Below are positions 13,761 to 56,864 of a stretch of 64,000 bases of DNA, one piece after another; position 1 is the first letter of the stretch, and the number at the start of each line of letters is the position of its first letter. Made by a program: the position numbers and the translations under genes. Below the pieces are notes generated by a model. The model did no database searches. It worked only from the letters and a program-made list of their open reading frames with translations, and had not been told where the DNA came from. Source of the DNA: a virus; IMG/VR virus record IMGVR_UViG_3300050011_000164, positions 20,730 to 84,729 of that record; one strand, 5' to 3'.

Positions 13761-13778
13761 GAGAAATCTCCTCTCCTC

Positions 13779-13788
13779 CATAATACTG
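13779..13788 (-). promoter_or_regulatory. CAGTATTATG promoter-like box
   Basis: Minus strand CAGTATTATG immediately followed by GAGGAGAGGAGA, so a transcript from it would start almost at the Shine-Dalgarno of the gene at 13760. Confidence 0.5.
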
Positions 13789-13790
13789 CA

Positions 13791-22011: not shown

Positions 22012-24141
22012 TTAAAAACGGCGTCCCTTGCCTCGGGATACCCTGTGGCTTCCGCCGCCAAATTTGAACTTGCTCATCTGGTACGTGCGTTCCGCTTGCT
22101 TCAGGTCCATCATGCTCATAGCATCGATATTGAGGATCGGCTTATGCGGAAGTGCCTGCTGTCGCTGCATGATGAGGCTCTGCCCCGTAGGGTCCATTTT
22201 CAAGTGACCCTCATCGATTAGCCATTGCTGAACTTGCATGGCGACAAGCATGACCGCATCCACCATGTCGTCGTGGGCTCCCTTTTCCAGAGGAGCGTGA
22301 ACGCGGATACGGTACTTGGCAACCACGTCGGTCTCCACCATCTTGATTTCGTGGATGAACTTCGGCACGTACGGAAAATTAGCTGTGTGGTCATTGATGA
22401 ATGACCGTAAAGCGTAAGCCATCTCCGAGTTGATCGCGGGGGTGAGATTCACCAATTCCATGTTATGGACTTCATTTTGCTCCAACAAAGTGATAAGCTG
22501 ACGACCTGCGTGTTGATCGGTTGAGCCCTTAAAACAGGGAAGGATTTTGTTCATTTCCTTCAACCAGAGTAGGATGTCACCTACGGGTAAGAGTTGGAAA
22601 TCCTTGTACTTGATACCGTCAGGAGTTTGAATGACAACCCCCGGACCTTCGAATTGCTCGCCAGCAATCATACGGTCGATGTAGTCAAACACTAGGTGGA
22701 AACCGTGGGTTAATCCGGGTGTTGGATTAGCGGCTTGACGAACCTCAAGGTGCCCAATCGCCAATGCCGAAGCGTCGGGCCTAGTATTATCGGGATCAGT
22801 GACGTTCACACCGCCAAGATCAAGGCCCCAGAAGTAGTTAAAGCCCACTTGATCGCCATTGAATCGCGTGGTGTTTAGACGAACGCTCGCACTGGGTAAA
22901 GGTTTGCCCATGCTGTCCCACGCACCTTCAGGCTTACCATTCACCAAAACATCCGTGCAGGTTATGATATCGATGGATCGAACGAACGATTCCGTAGATT
23001 CCAAGAATTGTCCGCCGTACTCAGCCCTGAACGTGATGGGGTTCTTACGAGCTTTGTCACGCAAGAACCCTGCCTTCAATTTCGGGTTCATTTCTGCCGA
23101 TGAACAACTGAGGGCAAAGGTTGGGTTATCCTCGTTGATACCATCTTCCATCGCCATACGGTAGAGATCGTACATCATACCGACTTTCTTCAATGGCGAT
23201 GAGATGCTCAGAATCAATGAATCCTGAATTTCGACTTTACCATCCGTGCCTGCGGGTTCCACGTGGTGGAAATCGCCCGTCTGGTGAAAGTCGGCCTCGT
23301 CGATGATGGGGGCGGATTCATCGTGATGGAAGTCGCCAGCGGCAGGTGTAGCAGCATCGTACATATCTTCAGACGTAGAACCTATCTCGGAACGGAAGTG
23401 AGCGAACTCATCAAGAGCGAGGAAGAGAGATGACGGACCACGGACAGCGTTCGTAGTACAGGGTAACGACACGACTTGAACAGACGGCTTGGCAGCAACC
23501 TTGTGATGACGGTCAGCCTCGCAAGTGAACGTCAGGTTTTTGGCGTTGTTGTCCTTGATGTAGGTATGGAACCACGTTGCACGAGTGACGGCAGCCTGAA
23601 GCTTTTGGAACAAGCGACCTGCGCCCGTTTCGTCCTGAGCCAAGAAGGTGAAGTCTATCTTTGAGCCCTCAGCCAAACCGAAGAACTTCTGCGGCGAGTT
23701 GATGCACAGCGTTAGGTAGAGCTTGTAGGCGGCAATGGCCGCAACGGCTTCCGATTTACCGCCACGACGACCACAGAAGATAACCGCTTCGTTAAAACCT
23801 CTCTGTGGTATATCTCGCCAGTCTCCGACGTTGCAGCGTCCCTCTTCGTGGACGATATGGAGATACTCTTCTTCCGTGACCGTGCAGATCAGTTCATCGC
23901 GGAAGGGGTTCCACATCTCCACCATTCCCCAGTTTTCGATGGCGTCAGCCCACTTGGGACGATAATCAAACGGGACGGCGAAGAGTGCCTTGATGAGGAC
24001 TCGCTGAACGGGACGCAGGACGATACCCGTCCCTCCCGGTCCTTCAATGAAATCAATGGCATTGATCTTCCTTGTCGCATCAGGCAGGATGTTGTCTGCG
24101 ATCTTTGTCCAAGCTGTATTTTTGACTTTCTTATCAGCCAT
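22012..24141 (-). CDS. terL: Terminase large subunit
   Basis: 709 aa from MADKKVKNTAWTKIADN; the upstream extension to 24249 looks non-coding. ATPase: Walker A FCGRRGGKSEA near residue 120, Walker B SSLFLALDEFAH near 245. Nuclease: FWGLDLGGVN (first Asp) and HDDMVDAV (C-terminal Asp). It cuts and pumps DNA into the capsid. Between Walker B and the coupling segment (SLILSIS) is an unusual insert of ~45 residues with GDFHHDE, ADFHQ and GDFHHVEP repeats. No small terminase, portal or capsid gene is recognisable nearby. Little Shine-Dalgarno before the start, so the start is moderately certain. Confidence 0.92.
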   Translation of the reverse strand: MADKKVKNTAWTKIADNILPDATRKINAIDFIEGPGGTGIVLRPVQRVLIKALFAVPFDYRPKWADAIENWGMVEMWNPFRDELICTVTEEEYLHIVHEEGRCNVGDWRDIPQRGFNEAVIFCGRRGGKSEAVAAIAAYKLYLTLCINSPQKFFGLAEGSKIDFTFLAQDETGAGRLFQKLQAAVTRATWFHTYIKDNNAKNLTFTCEADRHHKVAAKPSVQVVSLPCTTNAVRGPSSLFLALDEFAHFRSEIGSTSEDMYDAATPAAGDFHHDESAPIIDEADFHQTGDFHHVEPAGTDGKVEIQDSLILSISSPLKKVGMMYDLYRMAMEDGINEDNPTFALSCSSAEMNPKLKAGFLRDKARKNPITFRAEYGGQFLESTESFVRSIDIITCTDVLVNGKPEGAWDSMGKPLPSASVRLNTTRFNGDQVGFNYFWGLDLGGVNVTDPDNTRPDASALAIGHLEVRQAANPTPGLTHGFHLVFDYIDRMIAGEQFEGPGVVIQTPDGIKYKDFQLLPVGDILLWLKEMNKILPCFKGSTDQHAGRQLITLLEQNEVHNMELVNLTPAINSEMAYALRSFINDHTANFPYVPKFIHEIKMVETDVVAKYRIRVHAPLEKGAHDDMVDAVMLVAMQVQQWLIDEGHLKMDPTGQSLIMQRQQALPHKPILNIDAMSMMDLKQAERTYQMSKFKFGGGSHRVSRGKGRRF

Positions 24142-24178
24142 ATATAAAAGGAATTGGTAGTAGGAGGATTTGGGGAGG

Positions 24179-24352
24179 TTATTCGCCGCGTTCGTACTTG
24201 CAGCCTTCACAGTCGAGTGGACAGGGGGTGGGCACGTAGCAGGTATCACAGATGAAGTATTTGGTGAAATCTTCGCCGAAGAGTTCGGCCATAATCTTCA
24301 ACTTCTTTTCGAGGTCTTCGTCGAGAGGATTATCGCATTTTATACAGTTCAT
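24179..24352 (-). CDS. Small zinc-ribbon protein
   Basis: 57 aa: MNCIKCDNPLDEDLEKK ... YFICDTCYVPTPCPLDCEGC, with C-x2-C pairs at both ends, a zinc ribbon. It begins only 9 nt past a GC-rich hairpin with a TTTTCTT run, so it would be made from readthrough. No Shine-Dalgarno is visible. Confidence 0.6.
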   Translation of the reverse strand: MNCIKCDNPLDEDLEKKLKIMAELFGEDFTKYFICDTCYVPTPCPLDCEGCKYERGE

Positions 24353-24426: not shown

Positions 24427-24501
24427 TGGAACCCGCGACGGGACTCACACCCGCAACTCCTTCGTTTAGAATGAAGTGCTCTGCAATTGAGCTACGCAGG
24501 T
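24427..24501 (-). tRNA. tRNA with anticodon CUA (amber-reading)
   Basis: 75 nt with CCA encoded. Acceptor ACCTGCG/CGCGGGT (7 pairs, one T-G), D-stem GCTC/GAGC, anticodon arm CTTCA-TTCTAAA-CGAAG (plus-strand anticodon 24467-24469), T-stem GCGGG/CCCGT, discriminator T. Position 33 is T and 34-36 are C-T-A, which pairs with UAG. Oddities: the D-loop (AATTGCA) has one G instead of two, the T-loop is TGTGAGT instead of TTCGANT, and pair 31-39 is A-C. So it may be an active suppressor with an altered elbow or a decaying tRNA. Its 5' end overlaps the stop end of the next gene by 10 nt. Confidence 0.7.
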
Positions 24502-28927: not shown

Positions 28928-31900
28928 CTTCCTGCTCCACAACTAAGTCCGCCAGATCACCGATACCGAGATCGATTGGACGTTCCTCGTCTTCTTCGTC
29001 GCCATAGCCTGCACACGCTGTGTGTGCATTCAGTGCGTCGGTGCCGAGTTCCGCGACAATCTCCAGAGTGTTCTGAAGTTCATCCACGTTATCGCCCTCT
29101 TCGTAAAGCTCACCATCTACGAATACTTGGTAGCCGTCTGTGAAGGTCAGGACTTCGACGCGGCTGTCGTTGAGCATGAAATGCCCCGGCTCGCCATCGT
29201 CACTCCAACCCATACCCACCAGCGTCTCGACATACGGGAATTCCCCGACTTCGGCTGGCATTCCTGCGGCTGCTTCTTTCGTGTCGTCCGCCGCGTCCTC
29301 GTGTGGTGGTTGTGGCTTCTGTGGTTCCACAGGAGCGTCACCGCGTAGTTCTGGTTTCGTCTCCAAAGGCGTATCATTGCCTTTTAACTGATCGTCTTGT
29401 GATTCAGGCTTCGTCGCCAGAGGCTTGCCCTTTGACTGATTGCCCTGTGGCGCAGCCAAGTCACCCTGTTGACGATTGTCGCTGTCAACGCCCGGAGAAA
29501 CGGCATCCGCTGCCTGTTCAGGGTTGCGCGGAGTTCCACGTCCACCCCCGCCGCCTCCACCGCCGCCAGAGCCTTCGCCCGTGCCGCCAGTTCCATCAGA
29601 ACCCGGTCCATCGCCGCCCGGACCCGAACCGCTGTCCGTATCGACGGTAGATGCACCGCCCGTGCCGCCGTTGTAGATGATGATGGTGGGGGTTTTAGGT
29701 TGCACTCCACCAGCAGGTTGACCAGCGGCTTGTACACTGCCGTCTTCACCGCCGCCTTCGTCACCACCCGCTGAGTTTGTGCTCGTTGGTGCAATGCTCA
29801 CAGTTCCACCCGTGCCAGCCCCGCCTGTTCCCGTGCTGGTCGCCGCACCACCCGTGCCAGCCCCGCCCGTACCTGCACCACCCATGCCGCTACCTACGCC
29901 GCCAGTTGATGCACCGCCCGGACTTGAACCGCCAGTTTCGGTTGATGTTTCGTTGCCAGAAGTTTCCGAGGTTCCATTACCACCCGCACCCGCTGGTGCT
30001 GCTACGGCTGCTGGTGCTGGTGCTGCTGGAACCGCTGCTGGTGCTGCTGCTGGTGCTGCCGCTGGAGCTTCAGCCTTCGCGGGAGGAGTAACGGCGGGCT
30101 TATTCTTGCCCTTCGTCTCATCAGGCTTGGCTGCTGGTTCATCTTCAGCTTCGGGTTTCTCGTCAGCTTCAACTTCAGGCTTCTCGTCATCTGCCTCAAC
30201 GGGTTCTTCCTCATCCGCCGAGAAATGCTCAGGGTTGACCGTCTTGGTCGCACGTGAGTCATTCGCCAAATCTTTCTTGGCTCCATGGTCGAGTTCCGAC
30301 TTGGCTTCGGAGATATCCCCCGAGATGTCCGCCGAGTTCATTGTCATACGGTCTGTTTCAGCAATGTCCTGTGCGTAAGCATTATCGGCTTCGCGCTGAG
30401 CTTGAACATACGCTTCTGTTGCAGCTTCCGCTTCTGCCGCAAACTCAGGGTAGACCTGACCCGATACTGGGTCGATGTGCTCTTCACAGTCTTCCGCTGG
30501 TATCTGGCAGATTGCACAGAAGTCTTGTGCGCCTGCTGGCGGTTCATCGTTACGGCTGATGGCGGTCTTCTGAGAAGAACGCTTACCAGCCTCGCCTACG
30601 GACTCCGTGGGCTGCTTGATGTCCTTGTCAACGGTGTCTGGGTTGACTACTTCGGACTTCGCTTCCGAGATGTCCCCCGAAATGTCAGCCGCGTTACGAC
30701 GTGTCAGTTCACGAGCATCGCGTTGACGCTGCGCTTCCAGACGTTTCGCACGCTCTTCATTGGTTTCTTCCGCCACATCACCCTCTACCTTGAACATCGG
30801 CTCTTCTTCCTTCGACCACGTAGCCAACGGGTTCTGGTAGGTGCCGTCGTTCGGGTAAACCGCAGCTTCAGTTGGGTCGAAATGACCAATCAGATGCTCG
30901 TTGTGCCCGCCGGGTTCCATGCTCTTGAGCAAAGCTTCCATATATCGTGCGAGGTTCGCATCATTTGGCTTACCTGCACCACGCTGTTGTCCGTAACCCT
31001 TCACGTCCCACGCAGCATCGGTCGAGCCCGGAATACGAATGACGTACTTCGGTGTAATGGTACGGCCAGCGGTCTTGCTGATATCAGCGTCCGTCTTCGG
31101 AAGGATGGCACCGTCGCCATCAGCTTCGTTTGCAGGATTGTCGGCGGTGTCCGCCGTCTTTCCCTCACCGAAGTAAGATGCGAAGTCATCCTCGGCGTAA
31201 TTTGCCGTCTTTTCGCTCGACGCCAGAATCGCGTCGTCAAAGTTGGGCTCCATCTGCTCTTCCAGAGTGATGTACTGAGTGTTCTCTCCGAAAGGAACGT
31301 CGCTCTCTTCGAAGTGACCATTCTTATCGCGACAATCGCCATTCCAACCGAGTCCGAGTTTCTCGGAGGTCGTCAAGGATGGGTGTACGCCGCCGCAGGC
31401 ACCGCACTCGTAGAATACTGCGGGTGCCGTTGCTTGAGCTTCTTCCATCTGATCCAATGCCGCGCCATTTTCGTCAGCGAGGATGGAATCGAGTCCAGCG
31501 AAATGCTCATCGTCTTCGTCGTAACCGTTATCGAACGAAGGCTCCGCAGAGCAGCATGGATCATCCTCGTTCACGGTGCTGCCGCATTCGAAGCACTTAC
31601 GCTGCTTTACCCAACCCTGTTGGTCGGCGTCCCAGCGAGAATTCTGGTTGGGGCAACCTGTTTCGTGAGTCGCAACACCGTTGATGCTCAACATCTCGCA
31701 CTGGTCGCAACGAACACGCTGTCTGGGGCGAGCATTAGGTGCAGCCGTCTTGGAGTCTTCTTCCTTTGGCTCTTCCTTCTCTTCCTTTGGCTCGTCCTTC
31801 TTCTCGGACTTACTCTTGCCACGGTTCTTCGCCCATTCGGATTTAGAACCACCCTCGGACTTTGTTTCTTTCGAGTCCGCCGATGCTCCGTCGTCGCCCG

Positions 31901-34571
31901 TGCTGGGCTCGTCCTCTTCGGACTTGGTGGTATCGTTCTCAAGAGCCTCTTCCACCTTTACGGTCGGCTCTTCCTGATCGCCCTTGACCTGCTCGGGAAC
32001 GTCGCTCTTCGAGTCCGCACTCATCTCTGGAGCTTCGATCTCGTGCTGCCCTGTGGTGGACTTTTCGTTGTCCTTACTCTCGCCCGGAAGTCTAATCTCG
32101 GGTGCAGGCCCCATGTCTTCCATCGTCTCGGACCAAATGTCGTCGATATCCTGAGGAACATCGGCGAATTTCTTACGCTGAGACGAATACTTGCGGGCCA
32201 TCTCTTCTTCACGCTTCTTAGCCGCCGTGACGGAGTGCTGCGAGCGAGCATCGTAATCCTCGCCGCCAAACCCGCCGCCAATCAAACTGGCAATGTAGGA
32301 TGCGTCGTTTTGCGAAGCCGTCTTCTTGGACGCCTTCTTGGAGGAGATCACGGGTGGAACCTGCCCACCCTTCTGATCCTGTCCGTGGTCGCGTTCGCCA
32401 GCGTCTTCTGCTCCGAACTGATAGATCATGTCATCGTCACCGACGTAAATGTCCACGTTACCCCAAGCCTTGGAAGCCTCGGTCAAGCCATCGCCCGTTG
32501 TCGGGTAATCGCCATCCCAATAGCCCGCTCCGTGACCGCAGCGGGTGAGCCAGAAATCATGACCCTGACGGAAGTCGTCCTGACCATCCTGTTCGGATGC
32601 CGCAGCCAAAAGCTCGGCATTCTCCGCTTGGAACTTAGCGCAATCTTCGGTCATCGCCTGCAAGCAGGAGGGAGCGAGATCGCGGATATCGTAATTCTGA
32701 TCCAATGGCTGTCCACCGCTTGGATCGGACTCGTCATTCGAAGACCACAGAGCGGTCTCGATGTAGCCACGAGTGAAGTTGTCGAATTCAGCGGCGACCT
32801 TCTTGGCAGTGCCCACCCACAAGGAGGAAGCCTGCTTCTTGCCTAGCCCGCCCCACTTGGCGGCGTCGAAAGATGCGTGATGATCCTTCAGAGCATCTTT
32901 GCCCTGACGAGCCTGACTCACGTTCTTCTTCAAGTGCTCACTGATGGCTTCGGGATCGTCCTCTGCACCCTTCTTCGAAGACGAGATCGACAAAGGAGTC
33001 GGCCCATGCTTCCCTGCGGCGATCTCCTTCTTGTGATCGGCTACCGCGTGATGAGCCTGATTATCCTGACTCATGCTGGCGGCGTATTCCTTCATCTTGT
33101 CGGCATGTTTTTCGAGAGCCTCTTTAGCCTCTTTACCGCCTTTGCGGACTCCATCCAGTACCGCACTAGCGGATGCGCTCAAATCGCCAGCCTGAGTTTG
33201 TGCCGCGAGACGTTCAACATCCCCCGTACAGGTCAGACCCTCAACACGCTTCGCCTGCTTGTCAGCGGCCCTCTTGTCGTACTGAGCCTTGACTTCGCCA
33301 GCCCATGGACCCGGATTCTTTTCCTCGTACTTCTGGATCGCTTCCTTTATGTTGCTCGCCCATGTCGTGCTTGCAACATATTTGCCGCTAACGAAGATAT
33401 CGATCTTCGGGAAATCGCGACGGTCGCCGTAAGCGGCGGACTTTCCCTTACGCTCTTCTTCTGGACGGCGAGGTACGCCAGTCTCATCGAGAGCGATGCC
33501 AATTGGTGCGCTGTTGATGACGGCCTTCGGCGTGTCCTTCTCGTCCTTGTAACCTTCGGTGCGCTGGTTAGCTTCGTCGTGAGCTTCGGTGCCGGGGCCA
33601 ACGTTCGTAATCGGGGTCTCGAATACCGCAGTGGCGGAACCCTTCTTGACGCCCTTGTTGCAGAACTTGCAGCCATCGCCTTCGCACTTGTCGCATTCCT
33701 GAGCCGCAATACGGGGAACCATTTCGCCCTTTGTCGGAGCTTTACCTTCGGAAGCGTTTTCAACGCCCTTGGTGCCGCTTGGCATGATGCTGTTGCGGAG
33801 AGCCGTGTCCAAAGATTCGAACACGTCCATCTCCTGAGGTTCTAAGACAGCTTTGGTAACTTCGTCGGCGGTCTTGATGGTCAAACCGAGGCGGGTTCTC
33901 TTCTTCGACCCTTCCTTGGTGAGGAGCGGGTATTCCTTCAACGGATTCTCAGCCAAAGCGGGGAAGTTCATCTTCGGCGTGATGTCCGTGACATCGAACT
34001 TCGAGGTCTCCACATCGGTCATCATGGCATCGAATGCCGAGGACAGACGGGGGTCGAAGTACGAACTGAAGACCAAATGACGGGTCAGGTTTGCAAGCTG
34101 GTTATCGTCTTTCGGGAATTGGAAACCGATGTACTCACGCTTGTTAACCCAGTTAGGAGCGAACAGGATGAGGGCGGCGAACTTACCATCTTCGGAGCCG
34201 AACAACTCTTCCTTAATCGACGCATAGGACGCCTGAGAATATTCATCCCATTCGGTATCACCGATTTTGTGGGAGATCATGTCGCCAATTTCCTCACCAC
34301 CAAAGGTGCGAACAAGACAACCATAGAGCAGTGCGGTCGGGAAGTCCTGCCCCTTCTTGTCAGCAACCGAGGGAGGGACGATGTAGATACGACCGATGGC
34401 AATGTTCTGACGAAAGCCCTTGTAAAAAATTTCAAAGCTTTGGACGTTGCCCGAACTACGGGCTTCCTTCTCGCCAGCCTTAATAGCTTCGACAGTTTTG
34501 CTAAGCAACCCATCATTGACCATGAAGGACTGGAAAGACTTTAATGCGACTGTGTTTCCGCTCTGAGCCAT
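28917..34571 (-). CDS. Giant acidic zinc-knuckle protein, probable virion protein
   Basis: 1884 aa, AAGGGG Shine-Dalgarno. The N-terminal ~250 residues look folded; the rest alternates acidic disordered stretches with Cys clusters: CDKCEGDGCKFCNKG (DnaJ-like, ~292), CDQCEMLSING, CFECGSTVNEDDPCC, YECGACGG and FCAICQIPAEDC. Seven K-T-A motifs recur (SKKTAS, DSKTAA, SEKTAN, EGKTAD, ISKTAG, SQKTAI, TIKTAD). ADISGDISEAKSE occurs twice. An Ala/Pro run and a long Gly/Thr/Ser tract (GGAGTGGAGTGG) precede a folded C-terminal ~130 residues (MGWSDDGEPGHFMLNDS). Ends in TAG, followed two codons later by a second in-frame TAG. No known family; perhaps a scaffold or internal virion protein cut during maturation. 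Confidence 0.6.
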   Translation of the reverse strand: MAQSGNTVALKSFQSFMVNDGLLSKTVEAIKAGEKEARSSGNVQSFEIFYKGFRQNIAIGRIYIVPPSVADKKGQDFPTALLYGCLVRTFGGEEIGDMISHKIGDTEWDEYSQASYASIKEELFGSEDGKFAALILFAPNWVNKREYIGFQFPKDDNQLANLTRHLVFSSYFDPRLSSAFDAMMTDVETSKFDVTDITPKMNFPALAENPLKEYPLLTKEGSKKRTRLGLTIKTADEVTKAVLEPQEMDVFESLDTALRNSIMPSGTKGVENASEGKAPTKGEMVPRIAAQECDKCEGDGCKFCNKGVKKGSATAVFETPITNVGPGTEAHDEANQRTEGYKDEKDTPKAVINSAPIGIALDETGVPRRPEEERKGKSAAYGDRRDFPKIDIFVSGKYVASTTWASNIKEAIQKYEEKNPGPWAGEVKAQYDKRAADKQAKRVEGLTCTGDVERLAAQTQAGDLSASASAVLDGVRKGGKEAKEALEKHADKMKEYAASMSQDNQAHHAVADHKKEIAAGKHGPTPLSISSSKKGAEDDPEAISEHLKKNVSQARQGKDALKDHHASFDAAKWGGLGKKQASSLWVGTAKKVAAEFDNFTRGYIETALWSSNDESDPSGGQPLDQNYDIRDLAPSCLQAMTEDCAKFQAENAELLAAASEQDGQDDFRQGHDFWLTRCGHGAGYWDGDYPTTGDGLTEASKAWGNVDIYVGDDDMIYQFGAEDAGERDHGQDQKGGQVPPVISSKKASKKTASQNDASYIASLIGGGFGGEDYDARSQHSVTAAKKREEEMARKYSSQRKKFADVPQDIDDIWSETMEDMGPAPEIRLPGESKDNEKSTTGQHEIEAPEMSADSKSDVPEQVKGDQEEPTVKVEEALENDTTKSEEDEPSTGDDGASADSKETKSEGGSKSEWAKNRGKSKSEKKDEPKEEKEEPKEEDSKTAAPNARPRQRVRCDQCEMLSINGVATHETGCPNQNSRWDADQQGWVKQRKCFECGSTVNEDDPCCSAEPSFDNGYDEDDEHFAGLDSILADENGAALDQMEEAQATAPAVFYECGACGGVHPSLTTSEKLGLGWNGDCRDKNGHFEESDVPFGENTQYITLEEQMEPNFDDAILASSEKTANYAEDDFASYFGEGKTADTADNPANEADGDGAILPKTDADISKTAGRTITPKYVIRIPGSTDAAWDVKGYGQQRGAGKPNDANLARYMEALLKSMEPGGHNEHLIGHFDPTEAAVYPNDGTYQNPLATWSKEEEPMFKVEGDVAEETNEERAKRLEAQRQRDARELTRRNAADISGDISEAKSEVVNPDTVDKDIKQPTESVGEAGKRSSQKTAISRNDEPPAGAQDFCAICQIPAEDCEEHIDPVSGQVYPEFAAEAEAATEAYVQAQREADNAYAQDIAETDRMTMNSADISGDISEAKSELDHGAKKDLANDSRATKTVNPEHFSADEEEPVEADDEKPEVEADEKPEAEDEPAAKPDETKGKNKPAVTPPAKAEAPAAAPAAAPAAVPAAPAPAAVAAPAGAGGNGTSETSGNETSTETGGSSPGGASTGGVGSGMGGAGTGGAGTGGAATSTGTGGAGTGGTVSIAPTSTNSAGGDEGGGEDGSVQAAGQPAGGVQPKTPTIIIYNGGTGGASTVDTDSGSGPGGDGPGSDGTGGTGEGSGGGGGGGGGRGTPRNPEQAADAVSPGVDSDNRQQGDLAAPQGNQSKGKPLATKPESQDDQLKGNDTPLETKPELRGDAPVEPQKPQPPHEDAADDTKEAAAGMPAEVGEFPYVETLVGMGWSDDGEPGHFMLNDSRVEVLTFTDGYQVFVDGELYEEGDNVDELQNTLEIVAELGTDALNAHTACAGYGDEEDEERPIDLGIGDLADLVVEQEDAN

Positions 34572-47337: not shown

Positions 47338-47851
47338 ACTCTACGACAATTGTGCTCTTGCCGTCTGTTCTTTCCAGCGCCTTCTTGTACGCTGGAAATA
47401 TGTCCTCGGGCTCTTCTAATCTGATTACCTCTATGTTTTCGCACATGAGTCGAAAAGCTTCTGTGAAATCCCCGAGGTGCTGGCATTGAGGACTCAGCGG
47501 GCGTTCGGACCCGATGCCCACACGAATGATGACCTTGGGCTGATAGCCCCCGTTGGACATCTTCTTCAGCTTATCCAGATGGTTTACCACCTGATTTACC
47601 GCCAGCAAGAGGAAGTTCCACCGAGGGTACACGGTAACAGGGATAGCGCCGTTTAACGCCAGTCCAACGGTCATCCCCATCTGCATTTCTTCGGTAACAG
47701 GAAGCTCAATCCGTCTGTTGAGGTCAATATTTTGCAGTGTTGTGGTCATAGAAGTGCCTTTTACGGCGACGGCTTGTCCTAGAAAAACCACACGTTCATC
47801 CTGAGCTAAGTATTCCATTGAACGACACAACTCATCAAAATAGCGACCCAT
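47312..47851 (-). CDS. Thiamine-diphosphate enzyme, E1 beta-like subunit
   Basis: 179 aa. Begins GRYFDELCRSMEYLAQDERV; VTEEMQMGMTVGLALNGAIP carries the conserved Glu that activates thiamine diphosphate. It covers only the pyrimidine-binding domain of an E1 beta chain, without the C-terminal transketolase domain. TAATG overlap with the alpha-like gene shows they form one enzyme. Confidence 0.8.
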   Translation of the reverse strand: MGRYFDELCRSMEYLAQDERVVFLGQAVAVKGTSMTTTLQNIDLNRRIELPVTEEMQMGMTVGLALNGAIPVTVYPRWNFLLLAVNQVVNHLDKLKKMSNGGYQPKVIIRVGIGSERPLSPQCQHLGDFTEAFRLMCENIEVIRLEEPEDIFPAYKKALERTDGKSTIVVEYGDAYSEK

Positions 47852-48462
47852 TAGAACTGTATCCTCTCTCCAGAGCCCGCGTGCGGGTATTTCCCCGTCA
47901 CGTACTTAGAAAACTCGATGTTTTTTCCGCCAGCCTCGAATGTCAAAACGTTGTTTCCCCAAGTCGCACGAGTGTCCGTGCAGACCGACAACCCGTTGTC
48001 CTCAATGTGAAACGTTATCGGCAAGTCGAAATTCTGAGAATATTTTATGCACTCATGGGCAATGCCAGTTTCCGATGTCATGTCCCCCATGAAGCAGTGC
48101 ACACGATTAGTTCCTCCGCTACGTTTAATCCCAAGGGCGACCCCCAACGCTATAGAAACAATCCCGCCGACGATGCCCGAAGACACGATTCGATGCTTCG
48201 GAAAGCACAGCGCGATGGAACGACCCGCCAAAATCTCGGTCTTCAATTCGTCCTTGGGCACTCCCTTCAGAAGGCACTGGTAGTGACTGCGCCAAGAGCA
48301 CATGACCCAATCTTCGGGGTTGACGCCTTTGAACACCTCCAGCATGTGTTCTTCGCCGCCACTGTATAGGTGGATAACCGCCCTGATCTGCTTTGCCTTA
48401 AACAACTCGGCGATTTCCGTTTCGAACTGAATTAAATCTTGTGCTGTTAAACCCGTATTCAT
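47851..48462 (-). CDS. Thiamine-diphosphate enzyme, E1 alpha-like subunit
   Basis: 203 aa. IVGGIVSIALGVALG, then the diphosphate/Mg motif GDMTSETGIAHECIKYSQNF ending with ITFHIEDN (G-D-x(n)-N). Shorter than pyruvate-dehydrogenase E1 alpha (about 350). Split transketolase/E1-like pairs occur in some surface-sugar clusters; YerE-type enzymes use thiamine diphosphate to add a two-carbon branch to a 3,6-dideoxy-4-keto sugar. That would fit with the ColD-like gene, but this is inference. Confidence 0.8.
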   Translation of the reverse strand: MNTGLTAQDLIQFETEIAELFKAKQIRAVIHLYSGGEEHMLEVFKGVNPEDWVMCSWRSHYQCLLKGVPKDELKTEILAGRSIALCFPKHRIVSSGIVGGIVSIALGVALGIKRSGGTNRVHCFMGDMTSETGIAHECIKYSQNFDLPITFHIEDNGLSVCTDTRATWGNNVLTFEAGGKNIEFSKYVTGKYPHAGSGERIQF

Positions 48463-49268
48463 ATTCTAATCCACCTCGTAGGGGTAATGTCGGATTGCGC
48501 GGGGTCCCATTTTATGTGCCTTATATCCGCGAACCAACGGTACGGGGATATTACCACCTTGCCACGAAAATCCCCCAGCCAAGCACCCCACCAACTGAAA
48601 GAACTATTTGCGATCACAGCCTGTTTGCATATACTCATCAAAAATAAGTCTTCATGCGCTCGTCCTCCCTTATTGTGGTCTATAACTCTACACCCTTGGA
48701 AGTTTTGACGGCACCAATCGGGATCATCCGAAAAAATGAAGAAAGTAACATCCGACATTCTCTCACGTATACACTCTATGGCTTTTTTGTAGTAGTCCAG
48801 CGTTAGATTGCCTATCCACGGGGCTATATCAGGCAGCAGATAATCCCCTCGGCGGACATGAACAAATGCGCTGTTTGACGTTGCCAATATCTCATCAGCT
48901 ACACGTTGTGTCTGCTCACTCACCGCGTCTCGCAGAGATAGTTCCTCATGAATAATTTTCGGTTCAAAGTAGTATTTTTCAGTTTGCCAGTACCCAGAAA
49001 AATGTGGGTTGGCTGGGGCCGTATACACCATCTCGTCATAGGCGAAGATGCGCTCCTCATACTGTGGGTGACCACCTACATCTGCGGCAAATGTCACGTT
49101 GGTTTTGAATGCGTCAAGAGAGTATGGAAATCGAGACACCCCATCGACCATATCCGACCGTTTTTCAAAAAAGAGTTCTTCATTTCGCGCTTTGGACACG
49201 GAACGACCGAAGGCATACTGGAACATTTGGTTGCCCACACCCCCTTGGAGTCGAACAATCATACGCAC
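48459..49268 (-). CDS. GT11 alpha-1,2-fucosyltransferase
   Basis: 269 aa. LQGGVGNQMFQYAFGRS at the start, HVRRGDYL in the middle (the GT11 H-x-R-R-x-D motif) and FSWWGAWLGDF at the end. Transfers fucose from GDP-fucose to galactose at position 2, making H-type structures. ATGA overlap with the E1 alpha gene. Confidence 0.9.
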   Translation of the reverse strand: MRMIVRLQGGVGNQMFQYAFGRSVSKARNEELFFEKRSDMVDGVSRFPYSLDAFKTNVTFAADVGGHPQYEERIFAYDEMVYTAPANPHFSGYWQTEKYYFEPKIIHEELSLRDAVSEQTQRVADEILATSNSAFVHVRRGDYLLPDIAPWIGNLTLDYYKKAIECIRERMSDVTFFIFSDDPDWCRQNFQGCRVIDHNKGGRAHEDLFLMSICKQAVIANSSFSWWGAWLGDFRGKVVISPYRWFADIRHIKWDPAQSDITPTRWIRI

Positions 49269-49936
49269 TCACTCGCGCAAGCGCGTAGCATTTCTGGACT
49301 GCACGGGTGGAGAGCGATAAATTTCGGGTTTCGAGGCATTGCGCTTACTCCCACAAACTTGTTATCTACGCTGACATATCGTTCATCGTGCTTTGGCATG
49401 ATTCCAGCATTGCGGAGCACCGATCCTACCCAGTGATCCTCTAAATCGTTGTTCGGACGTGCATTGGCGACCAACCCAGCGGCTTTGGCACTCAGCCAGT
49501 ATCCGAGGCCAGTGGCGTATTGTGCGTGCGGTTTACTGGCATTGACACAACCCACATAATCACACCTTTCAAATTCGCTACTCAACAAATTGTTCACCCA
49601 GACAAACGTATCATCATCGACCTTGAAAATGAAGTCGTAACGCCCGCCCGCCCACGCACACATGCCTTTCGTCTTATACGGCAAGCTTCTATAATCATCC
49701 GCAACATCCAAAAACACCTCATCAGGTAGAGGTTGACGGTTGGCACCTCGTCCGTAAAAGAATCTAACATCAACGCTGGGATATGCCGCCAAATCTTTCA
49801 CCCAAGTCTCTCGACACGCAGCAACCTGTGCATCTACTGGAATGGAACGGTGTTTCTCCTTATTCGTCCAATCCCAGCCCCTACCCTGCACTGGAACGTA
49901 CCTATGACAAACGAGAAGAGCTACTAAAATTTTCAT
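49259..49936 (-). CDS. GT31-like beta-1,3-galactosyltransferase
   Basis: 225 aa. VALLVCHRYVP start, ACRETWVKDL, DFIFKVDDDTFVWVNNL (D-D-D donor site), GLGYWLSAKAAG and EDHWVGSVLRNAGI match the galactosyltransferase (GT31/fringe-like) pattern, also seen in the third domain of the 761-aa protein. Membrane anchor absent, as usual in phage versions. Confidence 0.8.
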   Translation of the reverse strand: MKILVALLVCHRYVPVQGRGWDWTNKEKHRSIPVDAQVAACRETWVKDLAAYPSVDVRFFYGRGANRQPLPDEVFLDVADDYRSLPYKTKGMCAWAGGRYDFIFKVDDDTFVWVNNLLSSEFERCDYVGCVNASKPHAQYATGLGYWLSAKAAGLVANARPNNDLEDHWVGSVLRNAGIMPKHDERYVSVDNKFVGVSAMPRNPKFIALHPCSPEMLRACASECV

Positions 49937-50646
49937 GCATTCCTCGGGTCTGGTGGTTGGACTCCATTGACGGCGGGGCGATTCGGAGCACCGGGTTTGG
50001 GAACACGAAACACCTTGGTGCTAGGTTTCCTGTTCCAAGCATTGTAGTCTTCCCCGAGTTCCATGGCGGGGGGATGGTCATATAGATATTTATTGAGCAC
50101 GCTTTCGTCGTGCCAAATGGGGACAAAATTGTTCTTGGTGTCGATGTCCACAATCGTAGCGCACTCGCGGCACAACGCGAGGAAAGCTTTAGATGTTCCA
50201 CCGTAGGACATTCCCGTGTACATCTTGCGGATGTCTTTCTTGCTCAAGCAAGCTGCGGATCGCGGGTTCTCCTCGGGAGTGCAGTACGCCCCTTTGCTCA
50301 GGATGAACGATGTGTGAATCGTGGCCGTGATGCCATCACTCAAAATCTCTTCACCCACTGGAGCCACAATCTCGCTGTCAACATCCATATACCAGATGAA
50401 ATCGTGTTGAGATAGCCAAGTCTCTTCGCCCAAGAACGTGTGGAACCTACGCCACGTGACGTTGGGCCAGCCGAGATGAGGCGACTTGACTTGTTTCGCA
50501 ACGTCATATTGTCGCTCGCTATCCGTGAACAATAGGATGTCCGTCTGCTGTGGTAGGAAATACTTCTTCGCGCTGGCAACTACGGGCTCAATATATTTGT
50601 GGTATCCTGCCCCCGTGCAGATAAACATCAAGGCAAATTTAGACAT
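49933..50646 (-). CDS. GT6 (ABO-type) glycosyltransferase
   Basis: 237 aa from MSKFALMFICTGAGYHKYIE with GGAGGAC upstream. FTDSER, TWRRFHTFL, FIWYMDVDSEIVAPVGEEIL (D-V-D), GTSKAFLALC and PIWHDESVLNKYL match family 6, which includes the blood-group A/B transferases and alpha-1,3-galactosyltransferase. Most bacterial members have N-x-N; this one keeps D-x-D as in vertebrates, which suggests metal dependence. A GT6 is also known from a cyanophage. Acts after an alpha-1,2-fucosylated acceptor in animals, and a GT11 gene is two genes away. Confidence 0.85.
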   Translation of the reverse strand: MSKFALMFICTGAGYHKYIEPVVASAKKYFLPQQTDILLFTDSERQYDVAKQVKSPHLGWPNVTWRRFHTFLGEETWLSQHDFIWYMDVDSEIVAPVGEEILSDGITATIHTSFILSKGAYCTPEENPRSAACLSKKDIRKMYTGMSYGGTSKAFLALCRECATIVDIDTKNNFVPIWHDESVLNKYLYDHPPAMELGEDYNAWNRKPSTKVFRVPKPGAPNRPAVNGVQPPDPRNA

Positions 50647-51277
50647 GCAAGTCCTCCGAAATGTTCCCCACACAGGACACACACGTGGGATCAACTTTAC
50701 CCCGTGCAACATGCCATCGAGTGTGCCGCCCTTTGTCCCCCACCAGACGTAGGTGCCCGTTCTCGGCATTTATTAAGCCTTGTCTGTGGCCATTTTCCTC
50801 AGCCATGTTCGGGTACAACTCACGGACACGCTTCCCACCTAACCTCCCGCCTTTTGGTCCACCTAGCTTCCCAGCTTTGCTGGAATTTAAGAAAGCTTGT
50901 TCGGGGTTTGCTTTTCTCCATCGAGCACGTCCGGCCCTCGAAGCCACCCTAGTAGCTGCGGCACGGTCTTCGTAAGCATACGGTCCTCCCATCACTTGCT
51001 TCAGGGGGCTGGCTTGATTTTTGCCGTTAGACCACCAAGTGTCCATTCTCGCAATCCACATGGTTTCTTTGGCGGCTCTAATATAGTGGGCTTGCTCCTT
51101 GTCATGAAATTGCATCGTCCCTTCCCACAAGATGCGATGCTCATGCTTTGCGGGGTCAAACCATTTGTACGCACGATATCCGTAGCGCCGTACCTTCAGG
51201 GATTGATTGGTGCTACCCACCATGAGGCATTTTTCACCCTCGAAAACCCCGTAAATGATGAAGTGGTAATCTATCAC
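50639..51277 (-). CDS. GIY-YIG-type homing endonuclease
   Basis: 212 aa. Diverged GIY-YIG core HFIIYGVFEGEKCLMVGSTN, then basic GGPKGGRLGGKRVREL linker (NUMOD-like) and a C-terminal GRHTRWHVARGKVDPTCVSC motif common in phage homing enzymes. Sits at the head of the glycan operon, overlapping it by 8 nt. Confidence 0.75.
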   Translation of the reverse strand: MIDYHFIIYGVFEGEKCLMVGSTNQSLKVRRYGYRAYKWFDPAKHEHRILWEGTMQFHDKEQAHYIRAAKETMWIARMDTWWSNGKNQASPLKQVMGGPYAYEDRAAATRVASRAGRARWRKANPEQAFLNSSKAGKLGGPKGGRLGGKRVRELYPNMAEENGHRQGLINAENGHLRLVGDKGRHTRWHVARGKVDPTCVSCVGNISEDLHV

Positions 51278-51705
51278 AGTCCCTCACTAATCGGTTTGAG
51301 ATACTGAATGGCTTTTGCGAGCAACTCGGGGGAGATTTTTAGTCTCTTCAAACCCTCCATGCAGTCGGCACAGAGTAATCCCCACACCCGCCCATCGCGG
51401 AAATCCACTAAAGTCTTCCTGTTATACAATACCAACGCCGAGTCGCAGATGCGGCACTTTTTATCCTGATGCCGCCAAAGTTCGAGGTACTGTCCGGGTT
51501 TCATCAGGTATTCGCGTTCGAGGAAGGCATCGTAGGTGTGGACCTTCGCCCAGAAAGTACCACAATAAGTGTTGTGACAGGTGCGGCAATAGTAGGAGCG
51601 ACCGCTGGCGGTGCGTTTGTTAAAGCCAAAAGCATCCAGTATGAGCCATTTTTCGCACTTTTTACACCATTTCTCCTTGTCGTTGAATAGCCGCTTGCGC
51701 CCCAC
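51274..51705 (-). CDS. Endonuclease VII-like protein, altered active site
   Basis: 143 aa from GTG with AGGAGG at 5 nt. WCKKCEKW and YCRTCHN zinc pairs, then LELWRHQDKKCRICDSALVL and WGLLCADCMEGL, the zinc and fold signatures of phage recombination endonuclease VII. Between them the usual V-D-H-D-H catalytic stretch reads LVDFRDG, so the His residues are lost and activity is doubtful. First gene of the minus-strand glycan operon. Confidence 0.75.
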   Translation of the reverse strand: MGRKRLFNDKEKWCKKCEKWLILDAFGFNKRTASGRSYYCRTCHNTYCGTFWAKVHTYDAFLEREYLMKPGQYLELWRHQDKKCRICDSALVLYNRKTLVDFRDGRVWGLLCADCMEGLKRLKISPELLAKAIQYLKPISEGL

Positions 51706-51811
51706 AAATCCTCCTATTATTGACTCCTAAATAGAGAGTTCGCTAGTTAACAGATTTTATTCGCTACCAAACCCATCTTATGTAGAGGATACTTTCCTCC
51801 GAGGAATCACC

Positions 51812-54334
51812 ATGGGCGTACCAACAATCGGTCCTGTTTTCGTGTTGACTCAGGTTTCCAACGCAGTTTTCCCATATCTGGGGTCACCAACTGGCAGCAC
51901 AACCTACACGGGAACCGTCACTGGCGGGGCAGCATCGGCAACGCAGCCGAACGGAGCCTACGCTGGTCAGGCTTTCATCATCACTGGCTTTACCAGTCCC
52001 AGCAACAACGGCACATTCAGATGCGTGTTCTCCTCCGCGACAACCCTCGTCCTCAGCAATCGTAATGGCACGGCTGTAGTTGCCGCTGGACAAGCCCAAT
52101 TGGTTATAGGGCACGGCACTCCTTTGCAGTATGCTTCAAAAATTTCAAACCTCGCGTCAAATGACCAAGGCGATAACGTCTATGTGAGCCCCTTGGCTGG
52201 TGACACGCTTGTTGCCATCGCATTCGGCCTCAAGAGCCTCGATCCATTCGATCAGCTTCACGGCGCATCCACCCATTTCGGCTACCTACAAGGCTTGAAC
52301 GACTTCATGCCCAATGCTCCGACAATCTCGGACAACTCGACATTTACTCCCGAGTCCCCACTTGCTGTGAGACTTGGCACGGCTGCTAACTATGCCCTGC
52401 TCGCCTACAGCGGCATTACGAACACGGGCGCATCGGTCATCAGTGGTGGAAACATCGGTTCAGCACCGACAACTGGAACGGAAAGCGGATTTACCTTCGT
52501 TTCTCCAGCCGCGATTGACAACGCCAACGCAGCGGCGGCTCGCACCGCAGGCAACACTGCCTTTACGTACTACTCAGGGCTGGCTCAGACGATGGCACTC
52601 ACGACCGCCGACATTGGTTCATCGGGCACTCAGCACAGTCCCGGTGCTCCAAACGGCACTTACTATGCTGGCGTGTACGTCAGCGGAAGCTCTATTGCGA
52701 TCACCACAGCGGTCACTCTTGACGCCCAAAACAACCCGAACGCGCTTTTCGTGTTCTACGCCACAGCCAGCACCATCACACAGGCTATTGCTGGAACGAT
52801 CACTCTAATCAACGGCGCGACCCCCGATATGGTCGTCTGGGTTGTCGGAAGCTCTTGGACTACCACTGGTCCGGGCGCTGTTACGGTCGGTAACATTCTG
52901 GCTTACACGAGCATCACGCTCGGTGGTGGCTCCCTCAACGGTCGCGCTCTGGCGGTTGGCGGCGGCAATGGCGCTGTAACTATCGCGGCGGCTACGGCGG
53001 TCACAGTGCCTTCCCTTGGCGGTAGCGCCAACAACTGGGTTCTCGTGGCGAACATCAACCTCGCAGACGCGGATTACAGCGGATACTCCATTCCGCCACT
53101 TGCTAACACTTCGTGGCCCGCAGCGGATTGGAGCATTGACGGTTACTACCCAAGTCTATACATTTGGGTTTGCGCTTCTGCAAATGCAGGAAGCTACAAT
53201 GTCAACCTCAACTCCGTTTACCAGAACGGCATCTCAGCCCCACTTGATCTGGCGGCTGGCAAGCCGATCTTCGACGGCGGCATCAACTTCCAAGTCATTG
53301 ACTGGACGGGCATGACGGGTGCAACAATAGAAATCGGCGGCTCCCCAGCTTCGGATTCGCAGGTGGCGATCACGGCTGCTAACCCCGCTGTCACCGCTCC
53401 AATCGTTACATCTGGCGGCGGCAGCCCGCCTGTGGGTGATCTTGTCATCGTAGTAGGTCTCCAGAAGAACGCCAACGGTCTCGGCCTTGGTACGGATTCC
53501 ACGATGTCAACCTACAGTTCATCTGTCAATGCTGAATTGGGCACGGCAGCTAACTATGCTTTGCTGGCCTACAGCGGAATCACAAACGCCTCGGCCTCGA
53601 CCTCGGTAACGGGCGGCGTCATTGGCTCGGCTCCGACGATGACTGAGACAGGCTTCAACCCCCCAGTGGTAACAATCGACAACGCCGATGCAGCAGCGGC
53701 TCGTCTTGCAGGTAACGCAGCGTTCGGCTATTACAGCGGATTGACCGCTACGCAGTCGGGTCTCGCAGACCTCAGCGCCAACGACGGTGGCGGGGGAGCG
53801 GGTGTCTACTACGCTGGCGTATTCAAGGGCGGTGCATTCCTAATGCCGACTGGCATTACGCTCGATGCTCAGGGCAACTCGAATGCGGTCTTCGTGTTCG
53901 TCGCATCTTCAACCGTCAACCTTGCAAGCGGTCAGTCCGTGACCTTGGTCAACGGTGCTCAGGCATCAAACGTGATCTGGGTGGTCGGAAGCTCCTTCAC
54001 GTCGGTTGCCAACAGCAACATGGTTGGCGACATCTTGGCCTACACCTCGATCACTCTTGGTGGCGGCACCCTCGTTGGGCGTGCACTCGCCGTAGGTGGG
54101 GGCAACGGTGCTGTCAGCATCAGTGCTACGACCGTCATCACGGTTCCTAGTGGAAGTAGCGTCGTGACCAACGGCGGCTACAACATGGTCAGCAGCGGGA
54201 AACTGGTTGGCTCTGAAGCTCACTACCTTGTGGAGTGGGGCGTTCAGGGTGCACCGGGTTCTTGGACACCGCAATTCGCGAATCCACTCGGCTATGAGAC
54301 TCTCATCGCTGCGGTTGCGATTAGCCATAGCTAA
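51812..54334 (+). CDS. Virion-type protein with two DUF3494 ice-binding domains
   Basis: 840 aa, GAGGAA Shine-Dalgarno. Residues ~185-400 and ~585-790 each match the DUF3494 ice-binding-like beta-solenoid: LGTAANYALLAYSGITN, GG-x-IGSAPT, Y[YF]AGV[YF], ITLDAQ-x-[ND]-x-NA-x-FVF, LINGA, VVWVVGSS, ILAYTSITLGGGSLNGRALA. The N-terminal ~180 and middle ~180 residues are other beta-rich Gly/Thr/Ala domains; the C-terminus ends VEWGVQGAPGSWTPQ. No signal peptide. Followed by the tail fibre gene, so probably a receptor-binding or fibre component. In cells the domain binds ice or acts as an adhesin. Confidence 0.85.
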   Translation: MGVPTIGPVFVLTQVSNAVFPYLGSPTGSTTYTGTVTGGAASATQPNGAYAGQAFIITGFTSPSNNGTFRCVFSSATTLVLSNRNGTAVVAAGQAQLVIGHGTPLQYASKISNLASNDQGDNVYVSPLAGDTLVAIAFGLKSLDPFDQLHGASTHFGYLQGLNDFMPNAPTISDNSTFTPESPLAVRLGTAANYALLAYSGITNTGASVISGGNIGSAPTTGTESGFTFVSPAAIDNANAAAARTAGNTAFTYYSGLAQTMALTTADIGSSGTQHSPGAPNGTYYAGVYVSGSSIAITTAVTLDAQNNPNALFVFYATASTITQAIAGTITLINGATPDMVVWVVGSSWTTTGPGAVTVGNILAYTSITLGGGSLNGRALAVGGGNGAVTIAAATAVTVPSLGGSANNWVLVANINLADADYSGYSIPPLANTSWPAADWSIDGYYPSLYIWVCASANAGSYNVNLNSVYQNGISAPLDLAAGKPIFDGGINFQVIDWTGMTGATIEIGGSPASDSQVAITAANPAVTAPIVTSGGGSPPVGDLVIVVGLQKNANGLGLGTDSTMSTYSSSVNAELGTAANYALLAYSGITNASASTSVTGGVIGSAPTMTETGFNPPVVTIDNADAAAARLAGNAAFGYYSGLTATQSGLADLSANDGGGGAGVYYAGVFKGGAFLMPTGITLDAQGNSNAVFVFVASSTVNLASGQSVTLVNGAQASNVIWVVGSSFTSVANSNMVGDILAYTSITLGGGTLVGRALAVGGGNGAVSISATTVITVPSGSSVVTNGGYNMVSSGKLVGSEAHYLVEWGVQGAPGSWTPQFANPLGYETLIAAVAISHS

Positions 54335-54385
54335 CTTTCGGCGTTGGCGGGTGGGCAACCACCCGCTTAACGTGGAGTCACAGCT

Positions 54386-55351
54386 ATGAGCTACAACAGT
54401 CAGCTTGGCAATACAACCACATCCGTCTTCGGTCTCATCCTATCTCTGTACGACGATCAGGAACACCGTGAGTACAACTACAACTGGCAGATACTCAACG
54501 CCAGTGTAAACGGCGGACTCCTATTCAACGGTGTTGCTCCCATCTCTGGACAGGTGCTTACGGCGGAATTCGTAGGATCACCCCCTGTTTTACAGGCAAG
54601 CTGGCAAACTCCTTCGGGTGGCGGCGGTGGGGTCACTTCCGTATTCGGCAGTGTGGGCGTCATCACGACGCTCAACAATCCAGTGTTCACTGGCACAGTC
54701 ACCGCAAATGCCATCAGCGGTTCGAGCGGCACCTTCACAATTGGCGCGAATGGCGCGAGTATCTCAATCATCAACACTGGAAGGATCACGGTCACTCCTG
54801 CTGGTGGGACGGAAGTCGCTCTCGGCAACACGGCTCTGACAAGTGCGTTGCATGACGGCACGGATGCCACTGGTACGGCAGGTCAGTTGCTCAGTTCGAC
54901 AGGTGGTGGCACCCCTACAACGTTATGGATCACTCCTAGCTACGCACCATTAGCTTCCCCCGGGTTCTCGGGCGTACCAACTGCTCCCACGGCGGCACCG
55001 CTAACGAATGACACCCAGATCGCAACCACGGCCTACGTTGACGCTGCCACTGGCGCTTCCAAGACACAGACCGTGCGCCTTACCGTTGGCACCGTAGCCA
55101 CGGGGTCTGTGCAAGGACCATACGCGCTCAATTTCACCACGCCGTTCGCGGACAACAACTACACGGTTCAGGCATCGGTAGTAGGACTTGAAGTAGCTCC
55201 GGGAACCTTAAGTGTCAGCGCGAACTACCCGCCCCTCGCTATTGCTTACGTGGCATATCAGGCGGCGGGTGCGGGCGTGAACGTGTGGATCGCTAATCAC
55301 GACTCAATTGTTCACACGGCATACATTCAAATCACCGCGATCCACGATTAG
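54386..55351 (+). CDS. Tail fibre protein
   Basis: 321 aa. N-terminus MSYNSQLGNTTTSVFGLILS may attach to the baseplate or previous protein. Gly hinge SGGGGGVTSVFGSVGVIT, then the classical fibre motif YAPLASPGFSGVPTAPTAAP followed by DTQIATTAYVD, and a C-terminal beta domain (YALNFTTPFADNNYTVQASV) likely involved in receptor contact. Good match to phage tail fibres/collar-like proteins. Confidence 0.85.
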   Translation: MSYNSQLGNTTTSVFGLILSLYDDQEHREYNYNWQILNASVNGGLLFNGVAPISGQVLTAEFVGSPPVLQASWQTPSGGGGGVTSVFGSVGVITTLNNPVFTGTVTANAISGSSGTFTIGANGASISIINTGRITVTPAGGTEVALGNTALTSALHDGTDATGTAGQLLSSTGGGTPTTLWITPSYAPLASPGFSGVPTAPTAAPLTNDTQIATTAYVDAATGASKTQTVRLTVGTVATGSVQGPYALNFTTPFADNNYTVQASVVGLEVAPGTLSVSANYPPLAIAYVAYQAAGAGVNVWIANHDSIVHTAYIQITAIHD

Positions 55352-55512: not shown

Positions 55513-56121
55513 ATGGTTGGGATTTATTGCTGGGTAAATGTTGAAAACGGGAAGATTTATGTTGGCTCGGCAACCGATGTAGCTCGCCGAAAATATCACC
55601 ACACCAGTCTTTTGAAAATCCAAAAACACCCCAATACGCACCTTCAAGCTGCTTGGCTCATGTACGGTGCCCACGCTTTTGAGTTTGAACTTCTGGAACA
55701 GGTGGACGACTTGCTTTGGCTCCGTGCCCGAGAACAAGCTTGGATTGCTCGACTTCAAGCGTGCAATCGTGAGTTCGGCTACAACGTCACCAGCGATGCA
55801 TGGGCACCCGTAACCTCGCCTGAGACCATTGCCAAGCTGAAGAAGGCTTGGGTAGCACGGAAGGCACGAGGGGACTATTACAAATTCACAACTGCGGACA
55901 CCGTGAAGGGTGTGACGGCTGCTGGCAAGAAGAACAAGGCTCGTTGGGAAGACCCTAAAATCCGAACTGAGATGCAAGAAGCACAGAAGGCGGGTTGGAC
56001 ACCTGAAGTTCGAGCAGGTCAAGCCAAGAGATTAGAACAGCAAAAGTTAAAGGACCCTACAATGTTCAGCCGTGGTGGTAGGAAAGGCTCGGCTGTTCGC
56101 TGGGCAAAGGAGTTACAATGA
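55513..56121 (+). CDS. GIY-YIG homing endonuclease, intact
   Basis: 202 aa. MVGIYCWVNVENGKIYVGSA gives the GIY...YVG core; RRKYHH..., AWLMYGAHAFEFELLE, REQAWIARLQACNREFGYNV follow in the normal order. NUMOD-like tail (AKLKKAWVARKARG, GWTPEVRAGQAKRLE, FSRGGRKGSAVRW). A free-standing selfish nuclease inserted between tail genes and the regulator downstream. Confidence 0.85.
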   Translation: MVGIYCWVNVENGKIYVGSATDVARRKYHHTSLLKIQKHPNTHLQAAWLMYGAHAFEFELLEQVDDLLWLRAREQAWIARLQACNREFGYNVTSDAWAPVTSPETIAKLKKAWVARKARGDYYKFTTADTVKGVTAAGKKNKARWEDPKIRTEMQEAQKAGWTPEVRAGQAKRLEQQKLKDPTMFSRGGRKGSAVRWAKELQ

Positions 56122-56864
56122 GCGCAGAGTGTACTCCATATTTTGATTCCATTACCGCTGCCCGTGCAATGCTCCTAACCGAAGAAGAGGCCCTCGAAGG
56201 GCAAACACTCCTCAGCGCAGAGTCCGACCCAAAGAAGAAAGAGGATCAAAAAATCCTCACTTACATTCAGGAGAATTTCCCAATGTTCCTGAAAATTTTG
56301 CGTCTCCTGAAGAAGGAGGATCAGGAACTTTTGCTGAGCTACTACCTGTTGAGTAAGACCCAGAACACGCTGGCGATCATACACCGCAGCACGCAGACAG
56401 TGTGCTCCTTCCGCATCCGCATGGCGGTCAAAGTGTTGTGCGCTTTCATCCTGTATGGAAAAGAGTTCACCGAAGAGAAGATGCGGGCCGTGTTAGTTCA
56501 GGCAAAGCTTGAGAACAGTATCAAGAGCGTGCCCCTTAGCACGATCATCGACCTGTACATCAAAACTCGGAGCTTTCAGCGGGTCGCCGAGATTCACAAG
56601 CTCCACCGCCCCGACATCCGCCGTGCGATGAGTCGGTCGAGCAAGCAACTACTGGAATCCAAGGACCCTGAAGAGAAAGCATTGGGGGCGTTCATCCACA
56701 GTCTGATCGACAAGGCTAACCCTAGCGGTACGGGGTTTTCGAAGCGGAAGGTTCAGAAGTTGGGGAATATTTACAGAACCGATCCCGCGATACTAGGCAA
56801 CTTTCGAGTCAAGATCACTGACCCCGACTTCGATCACATGTTTGTCAGTCGAGCGAATCGGTAG
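56118..56864 (+). CDS. Possible regulator with sigma region 4-like HTH
   Basis: 248 aa, ATGA overlap with the homing gene. LKKEDQELLLSYYLLSKTQNTLAIIHRSTQTVCSFRIRMAVKVLC (about 74-118) has the spacing of sigma-70 region 4 or a LuxR-like helix-turn-helix. A second helical pair follows (LSTIIDLYIKTRSFQRVAEIHKLHRPDIRRAMSRS). No region 2. May be a transcription factor; DNA target unknown. Confidence 0.5.
   Translation: MSAECTPYFDSITAARAMLLTEEEALEGQTLLSAESDPKKKEDQKILTYIQENFPMFLKILRLLKKEDQELLLSYYLLSKTQNTLAIIHRSTQTVCSFRIRMAVKVLCAFILYGKEFTEEKMRAVLVQAKLENSIKSVPLSTIIDLYIKTRSFQRVAEIHKLHRPDIRRAMSRSSKQLLESKDPEEKALGAFIHSLIDKANPSGTGFSKRKVQKLGNIYRTDPAILGNFRVKITDPDFDHMFVSRANR

Follow-up and report, generated by a model that had tools for sequence, protein, structure and literature searches.

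This analysis addressed the question of what two ice-binding (DUF3494, Pfam PF11999) domains are doing in a phage gene that lies beside a tail fibre gene. The gene, at 51812-54334 on the plus strand, is found in a 64,000-nucleotide stretch (the window) covering positions 20,730 to 84,729 of IMG/VR virus record IMGVR_UViG_3300050011_000164, an 84,729-base sequence that may itself be a fragment, and it appears in the list of open reading frames (ORFs) as an intact frame of 840 amino acids (aa) with an ATG start. Its product, here called the carrier, is very probably a phage structural protein of the tail/adsorption module, which displays DUF3494 on the virion as an exchangeable adhesion or display module. 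The observations that appear to support this directly, all drawn from sequence, are the identity of the domains, their clean insertion or absence, their swapping, purifying selection, the lack of secretion signals, and gene context. The carrier would then be part of the virus particle, and its uncharged, Thr/Ala-rich domains would provide weak, multivalent adhesion.

The identity of the domains was established by the PF11999 (Ice_binding) search that an earlier note, made from the letters alone, had proposed. The whole protein matched the profile in two stretches (E 6.4e-51, 173 bits, cut-off 28.7), with per-domain scores of 98.1 bits (E 2.2e-29) and 97.6 bits (E 3.3e-29), while the same search of 14 control genomes returned no match. 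The claim of that note that both copies carry the whole domain signature was borne out, as the matches cover profile positions 2-206 and 2-207 of 208, with no internal stops. Identity between the two domains is 58%. Both were modelled confidently by AlphaFold2 (predicted local distance difference test score, pLDDT, mostly 75-93), with long helices at aa 240-255 and 627-642 among the strands, corresponding to the inserted helix and beta-helix fold of the family. Both models matched solved DUF3494 ice-binding structures in Foldseek, the best single-domain match being 7bwy, an Antarctic ice-binding protein (target-normalised template modelling score, TM, 0.87; 1.9 A; 32% identity). Sequence family, predicted fold and tandem arrangement are thus shared with known ice-binding proteins (FfIBP 4nu2, AnpIBP 7bwy, SfIBP_1 6bg8, and the tandem IBP 5uyt), but the cellular proteins are typically exported, whereas the window domains would sit in loops of a phage protein that has no signal-peptide-like start (by a crude hydrophobicity rule) and adjoins, just as the earlier note had said, a frame matching tail-fibre PHROGs (Table 1). 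The window domains are rich in Thr and Ala and nearly uncharged; charged residues make up 4.2% of phage DUF3494 domains versus 7.7% of cellular ones.

Comparison of the carrier with its relatives revealed three conserved segments (aa 1-188, 401-576, and 780-840) around two slots of variable content, and the segments may well form one domain from which the slots emerge as loops. Two DUF3494 domains are retained in six full-length viral relatives (61-74% identity; five of the six nearly identical to each other), only one is present in contigs L030 and L031, where a short linker closes slot 2, and none is found in the carrier homologues of L224, L226/L227 and L228. In these last, slot 1 is occupied by other sequence that includes a module of about 60 aa (YTGTxTGGA..NNGTF..TTLTLSN), one copy of which also fills slot 2 of L224, and PF11999 is absent from the whole 455-kb L228 contig. 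A homologue of gp346 of Tunturi_5, a myovirus with a 309-kb genome that infects the tundra acidobacterium Tunturiibacter psychrotolerans (PMC11924767), lies downstream of the carrier in L030, L031, L224 and L228, indicating a single conserved locus whose contents vary. The 60-aa module itself was found in 59 frames, all of phage, in one to three copies, frequently adjoining DUF3494 and at times occupying the slot of that domain (51896-52099 in the window; L224:3977-6391; L228:3974-5302; also L013, L014, L056 and L074), and gave no Pfam or PDB match.

The slots also differ between close relatives that retain both domains. Between the window and L003, a 223,506-base contig with the nearest carrier, DNA identity is 78-86% across the carrier flanks and 80% in domain 2 but only 58% in domain 1, although the sequence on either side of domain 1 is 78-79% identical; the divergence begins and ends abruptly, near residues 176 and 408. 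At DNA level domain 1 is most similar (77%) to sequence within another gene, in L032/L033, and over its last 109 nt it shares 88% identity with a DUF3494 domain inside the tail sheath protein of L044. This pattern indicates that the content of slot 1 has been exchanged relative to L003, and that DUF3494 behaves as a cassette. Domain 2 is under strong purifying selection, with a ratio of nonsynonymous to synonymous substitution rates (dN/dS) of 0.11 against L003. Homing endonucleases are possible drivers of this exchange. Genes for an endonuclease VII (51274-51705, minus strand) and a GIY-YIG endonuclease (55513-56121, plus strand) flank the DUF3494 gene, and a different endonuclease gene lies between carrier and fibre in L003 (12526-13290).

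DUF3494 also occurs within recognised virion proteins of other phages. The tail sheath of L044 (phrog_2839, 8e-24) carries the domain at aa 295-485, and when aligned with the sheath of an isolate, Tunturi_5 gp326, the block of about 215 aa stands out as the only large insert, with no counterpart in gp326. The L003 homologue of the neighbouring tail fibre holds a DUF3494 domain between its N- and C-terminal parts, whereas the window fibre has none. In L040, L055, L065 and L076 a major head gene is followed, one or two genes on, by a DUF3494 gene, and in the unrelated phage L012 (142-kb contig; 9335-13811) one protein with two DUF3494 domains and a second with one internal domain directly follow the baseplate wedge protein. 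Six DUF3494 domains were counted in L003 and five each in L007 and L012. Companion families in these proteins include head decoration, tail sheath, tail fibre, K1-lyase_C, Ig, PA14 and fn3, although the two members matching the head decoration family phrog_20658 could not be pinned down, and the neighbouring genes encode head proteins, baseplate wedge proteins and tail fibres, as well as many endonuclease VII/HNH enzymes. The domain thus appears on recognised virion proteins (L044 sheath, L003 fibre), to which the window carrier would be added by its context, and it is present or absent, and exchangeable, between homologues, as judged from their alignments and as is characteristic of a display domain. 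The earlier note had called the protein virion-type, a description favoured by the sheath and fibre inserts, the head-gene neighbours and the lack of a secretion signal; a particle location for the window carrier itself is what we infer from these.

Relatives are widespread, being encoded by at least 199 IMG/VR stretches according to an alignment of phage domains, a lower bound as the search used only two short patterns. All 69 non-redundant phage proteins scored for PF11999, and the domain lies at the start, middle or end of phage proteins of 284-2086 aa. By one simple, crude hydrophobicity rule, a signal-peptide-like start was seen in 3 of 73 phage proteins versus 69 of 83 cellular ones. In the phylogenetic tree, 68 of 71 phage domains fell into one split without cellular domains (support 0.76), and the best match of a phage domain had a median identity of 77% among the other phage domains and of 45% among cellular ones, but, as phage-derived patterns had been used to retrieve both sets, the separation is a tendency and not proof of a single origin. 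Bacterial contamination of the viral contigs was rejected, as DUF3494 occurs within the tail sheath and tail fibre of phages and genes of Tunturi_5 have homologues in the window. Tblastn searches of INPHARED with the window protein and with L110 gave no match, and the matches obtained with L012 as query fell outside its DUF3494 domains; PF11999 was also absent from Tunturi_2, 3 and 4, from megaphage LR745208, and from the record of Synechococcus phage S-SKS1, although S-SKS1 is named as a source of viral homologues (PMC11515562). Among predicted viral structures in BFVD, the only significant matches were three Hyperionvirus DUF3494 proteins, which share the domain but belong to a different virus, with no phage member among them. 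The earlier note had found DUF3494 in a phage tail module unfamiliar, and no report joining DUF3494 with phage, or placing the domain on a virion, was found in open-licence full-text literature; the window phage, however, is not unique in this respect, given the 199 stretches.

Taken together, DUF3494 represents cargo of a new kind within an already familiar type of system, the modular display of domains on virions. In these soil phages it would act as a promiscuous display cassette, used like the immunoglobulin (Ig)-like domains of other phages: inserted into the tail sheath or tail fibre, or into proteins of the baseplate region and next to the head, swapped between genes, and sometimes absent. 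In the window phage, two DUF3494 beta-helices would be held on the virion exterior in the two loop slots of the carrier, where weak multivalent adhesion could keep virions on a surface near their host. A close parallel is T4 Hoc, in which variable Ig-like domains accompany a conserved part that binds the capsid (PMC10385173); Ig-like display domains are likewise swappable and occur on capsid and tail proteins of many unrelated phages. The DUF3494 domain differs in being a beta-helix rather than an Ig fold, and no capsid-binding domain was seen in its carrier. PF11999 has also been classed as an adhesive domain of bacterial fibrillar adhesins (PMC8286594). Several points weigh against a virion display role: the carrier itself matched no PHROG family, its fold was poorly modelled by AlphaFold2 (pLDDT 47) and the model found no PDB match with Foldseek, some DUF3494 neighbours are without known function, and the locus is rich in glycosyltransferase and homing-endonuclease genes, so that not all neighbours are structural.

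What the displayed domains bind is a separate matter. No conserved motif marks the ice-binding sites of DUF3494 proteins (PMC7966756), and sequence therefore does not distinguish among the options that the earlier note listed, namely ice, mineral, host surface and adhesin mimicry; reading ice binding directly from sequence was ruled out on the same ground. Most likely the domain serves in display and adheres to a surface multivalently, as thought for Ig-like domains such as those of T4 Hoc, and a cell-surface or matrix glycan seems a somewhat likelier ligand than ice, the remaining probability going to freeze protection of the virion or a purely structural role. A functional ice binder on the virion, which would hold phages with host cells at the ice-water interfaces of frozen soil or shield particles during freeze-thaw, is possible, if doubtful. 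Family membership and the fold match to proven ice-binding proteins speak for it, as do the Thr/Ala-rich, nearly uncharged domains and the Arctic tundra soil origin of the nearest isolate relative, but there is no ice-site motif to check against, the tundra phage Tunturi_5 itself lacks DUF3494, and the domain is widespread among soil bacteria with no specialisation for ice, such as Streptomyces. In its fuller form, with working domains on tail, fibre and head, swapping that tunes the surface, and virions that adsorb to ice and so accompany or stay beside their hosts in freezing soil, the idea is unlikely.

A neutral or purely structural spacer, that is, a stable beta-helix lengthening virion proteins without a ligand, is less probable again. 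That the same slots can hold a small unrelated module or stand empty, and that DUF3494 occurs in many unrelated protein contexts, would be expected of such a spacer, but the strong purifying selection on domain 2 and the retention and repeated re-insertion of the same family in phages would not. An auxiliary host gene, whose ice-binding product protects the infected cell, is highly improbable: this is how three PF11999 genes in Central Arctic viral operational taxonomic units (PMC11515562) and one viral antifreeze protein from the Southern Ocean (PMC8407431) were read, and cellular DUF3494 proteins do work extracellularly, but the rarity of signal-peptide-like starts in the phage proteins, the window protein included, argues against a secreted host cryoprotectant, and with the sheath and fibre fusions led to rejection of a secreted auxiliary metabolic gene, a reading also disfavoured by the tail-module position. 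The Arctic and Southern Ocean cases likewise lie on viral contigs, and the passages of the two reports that deal with them describe no fusion to a virion protein.

The virus is a distant, not close, relative of the jumbo phage Tunturi_5, judging from its large terminase subunit (TerL; 40% identity over 94%) and from homologues in the window of the Tunturi_5 sigma factor, gp346, gp347, gp348, gp349 and the DarB-like gp350; given this distant relative, the host is probably an acidobacterium. The sheath of Tunturi_5 is likewise homologous to that of L044, but the 309-kb genome has no PF11999 match and its sheath no insert. Between the homologues of gp347 and gp346, which are adjacent in Tunturi_5, the window has the carrier and fibre genes together with a run of glycosyltransferase genes. 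That run (47851-50769, minus strand) comprises GT6, Galactosyl_T and GT11 glycosyltransferases along with a pyruvate-dehydrogenase-E1-like protein. Tunturi_5 gp345, a candidate carrier orthologue by position, was rejected as it shows no similarity, and the Tunturi_5 fibres gp341/gp342 gave weak matches to the carrier without composition correction and none with phmmer. Between the carrier and fibre genes (54347-54366) lies a perfect 8-bp hairpin with a GCAA loop (GCGGGTGG-GCAA-CCACCCGC) and no T-run. Elsewhere in the window, two giant frames of 1118 and 1884 aa (25586-34571, minus strand) match the C- and N-terminal parts of gp350 (DarB-like antirestriction), so that this gene appears to have grown and been divided into two frames. 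One tRNA (24427-24501, minus strand; tRNA-Pyl by ARAGORN, Rfam RF00005 51 bits) has the anticodon CTA and is a possible amber suppressor, although TAG terminates 6 of 24 large frames.

Table 1. Coordinates of the carrier gene, its parts and selected neighbours in the window.
Feature	Position	Strand	Evidence or remark
Carrier protein, 840 aa, two DUF3494 domains	51812..54334	+	ORF; PF11999 6.4e-51; full-length relatives 61-74% identity
Shine-Dalgarno-like GAGGA 5' of ATG	51801..51805	+	Sequence reading
About 60-aa YTGT/NNGTF module, carrier N-terminal segment	51896..52099	+	Own hidden Markov model from 8 modules
DUF3494 domain 1, slot 1, aa 189-400	52376..53011	+	Exchanged relative to L003
Middle carrier segment, aa 401-576	53012..53539	+	Kept in DUF3494-less L224, L226, L228
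DUF3494 domain 2, slot 2, aa 577-779	53540..54148	+	Slot empty in L030, L031
C-terminal carrier segment, GKLVGSEAHY...NPLGYE	54149..54334	+	Conserved across all carriers
Tail fibre protein, without DUF3494	54386..55351	+	PHROG tail fibre, best 1.2e-9; L003 homologue carries DUF3494
GIY-YIG endonuclease between fibre and gp346 homologue	55513..56121	+	PF01541 3.6e-7
Tunturi_5 gp346 homologue, marks conserved locus	56118..56864	+	54% over 99%
Terminase large subunit, identifies phage and relatives	22012..24249	-	PHROG terminase; 40% to Tunturi_5 TerL

PF11999 genes on viral contigs have so far been filed as host-protecting metabolic genes, but here they would be exchangeable particle parts in many soil phages, which changes how viral matches to this family are interpreted. 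Whether soil phages adhere to ice or to matrix becomes a testable question, and the many solved structures of the fold make bench tests easy to design. The repertoire of modular virion display domains would, in turn, gain a beta-helix fold.
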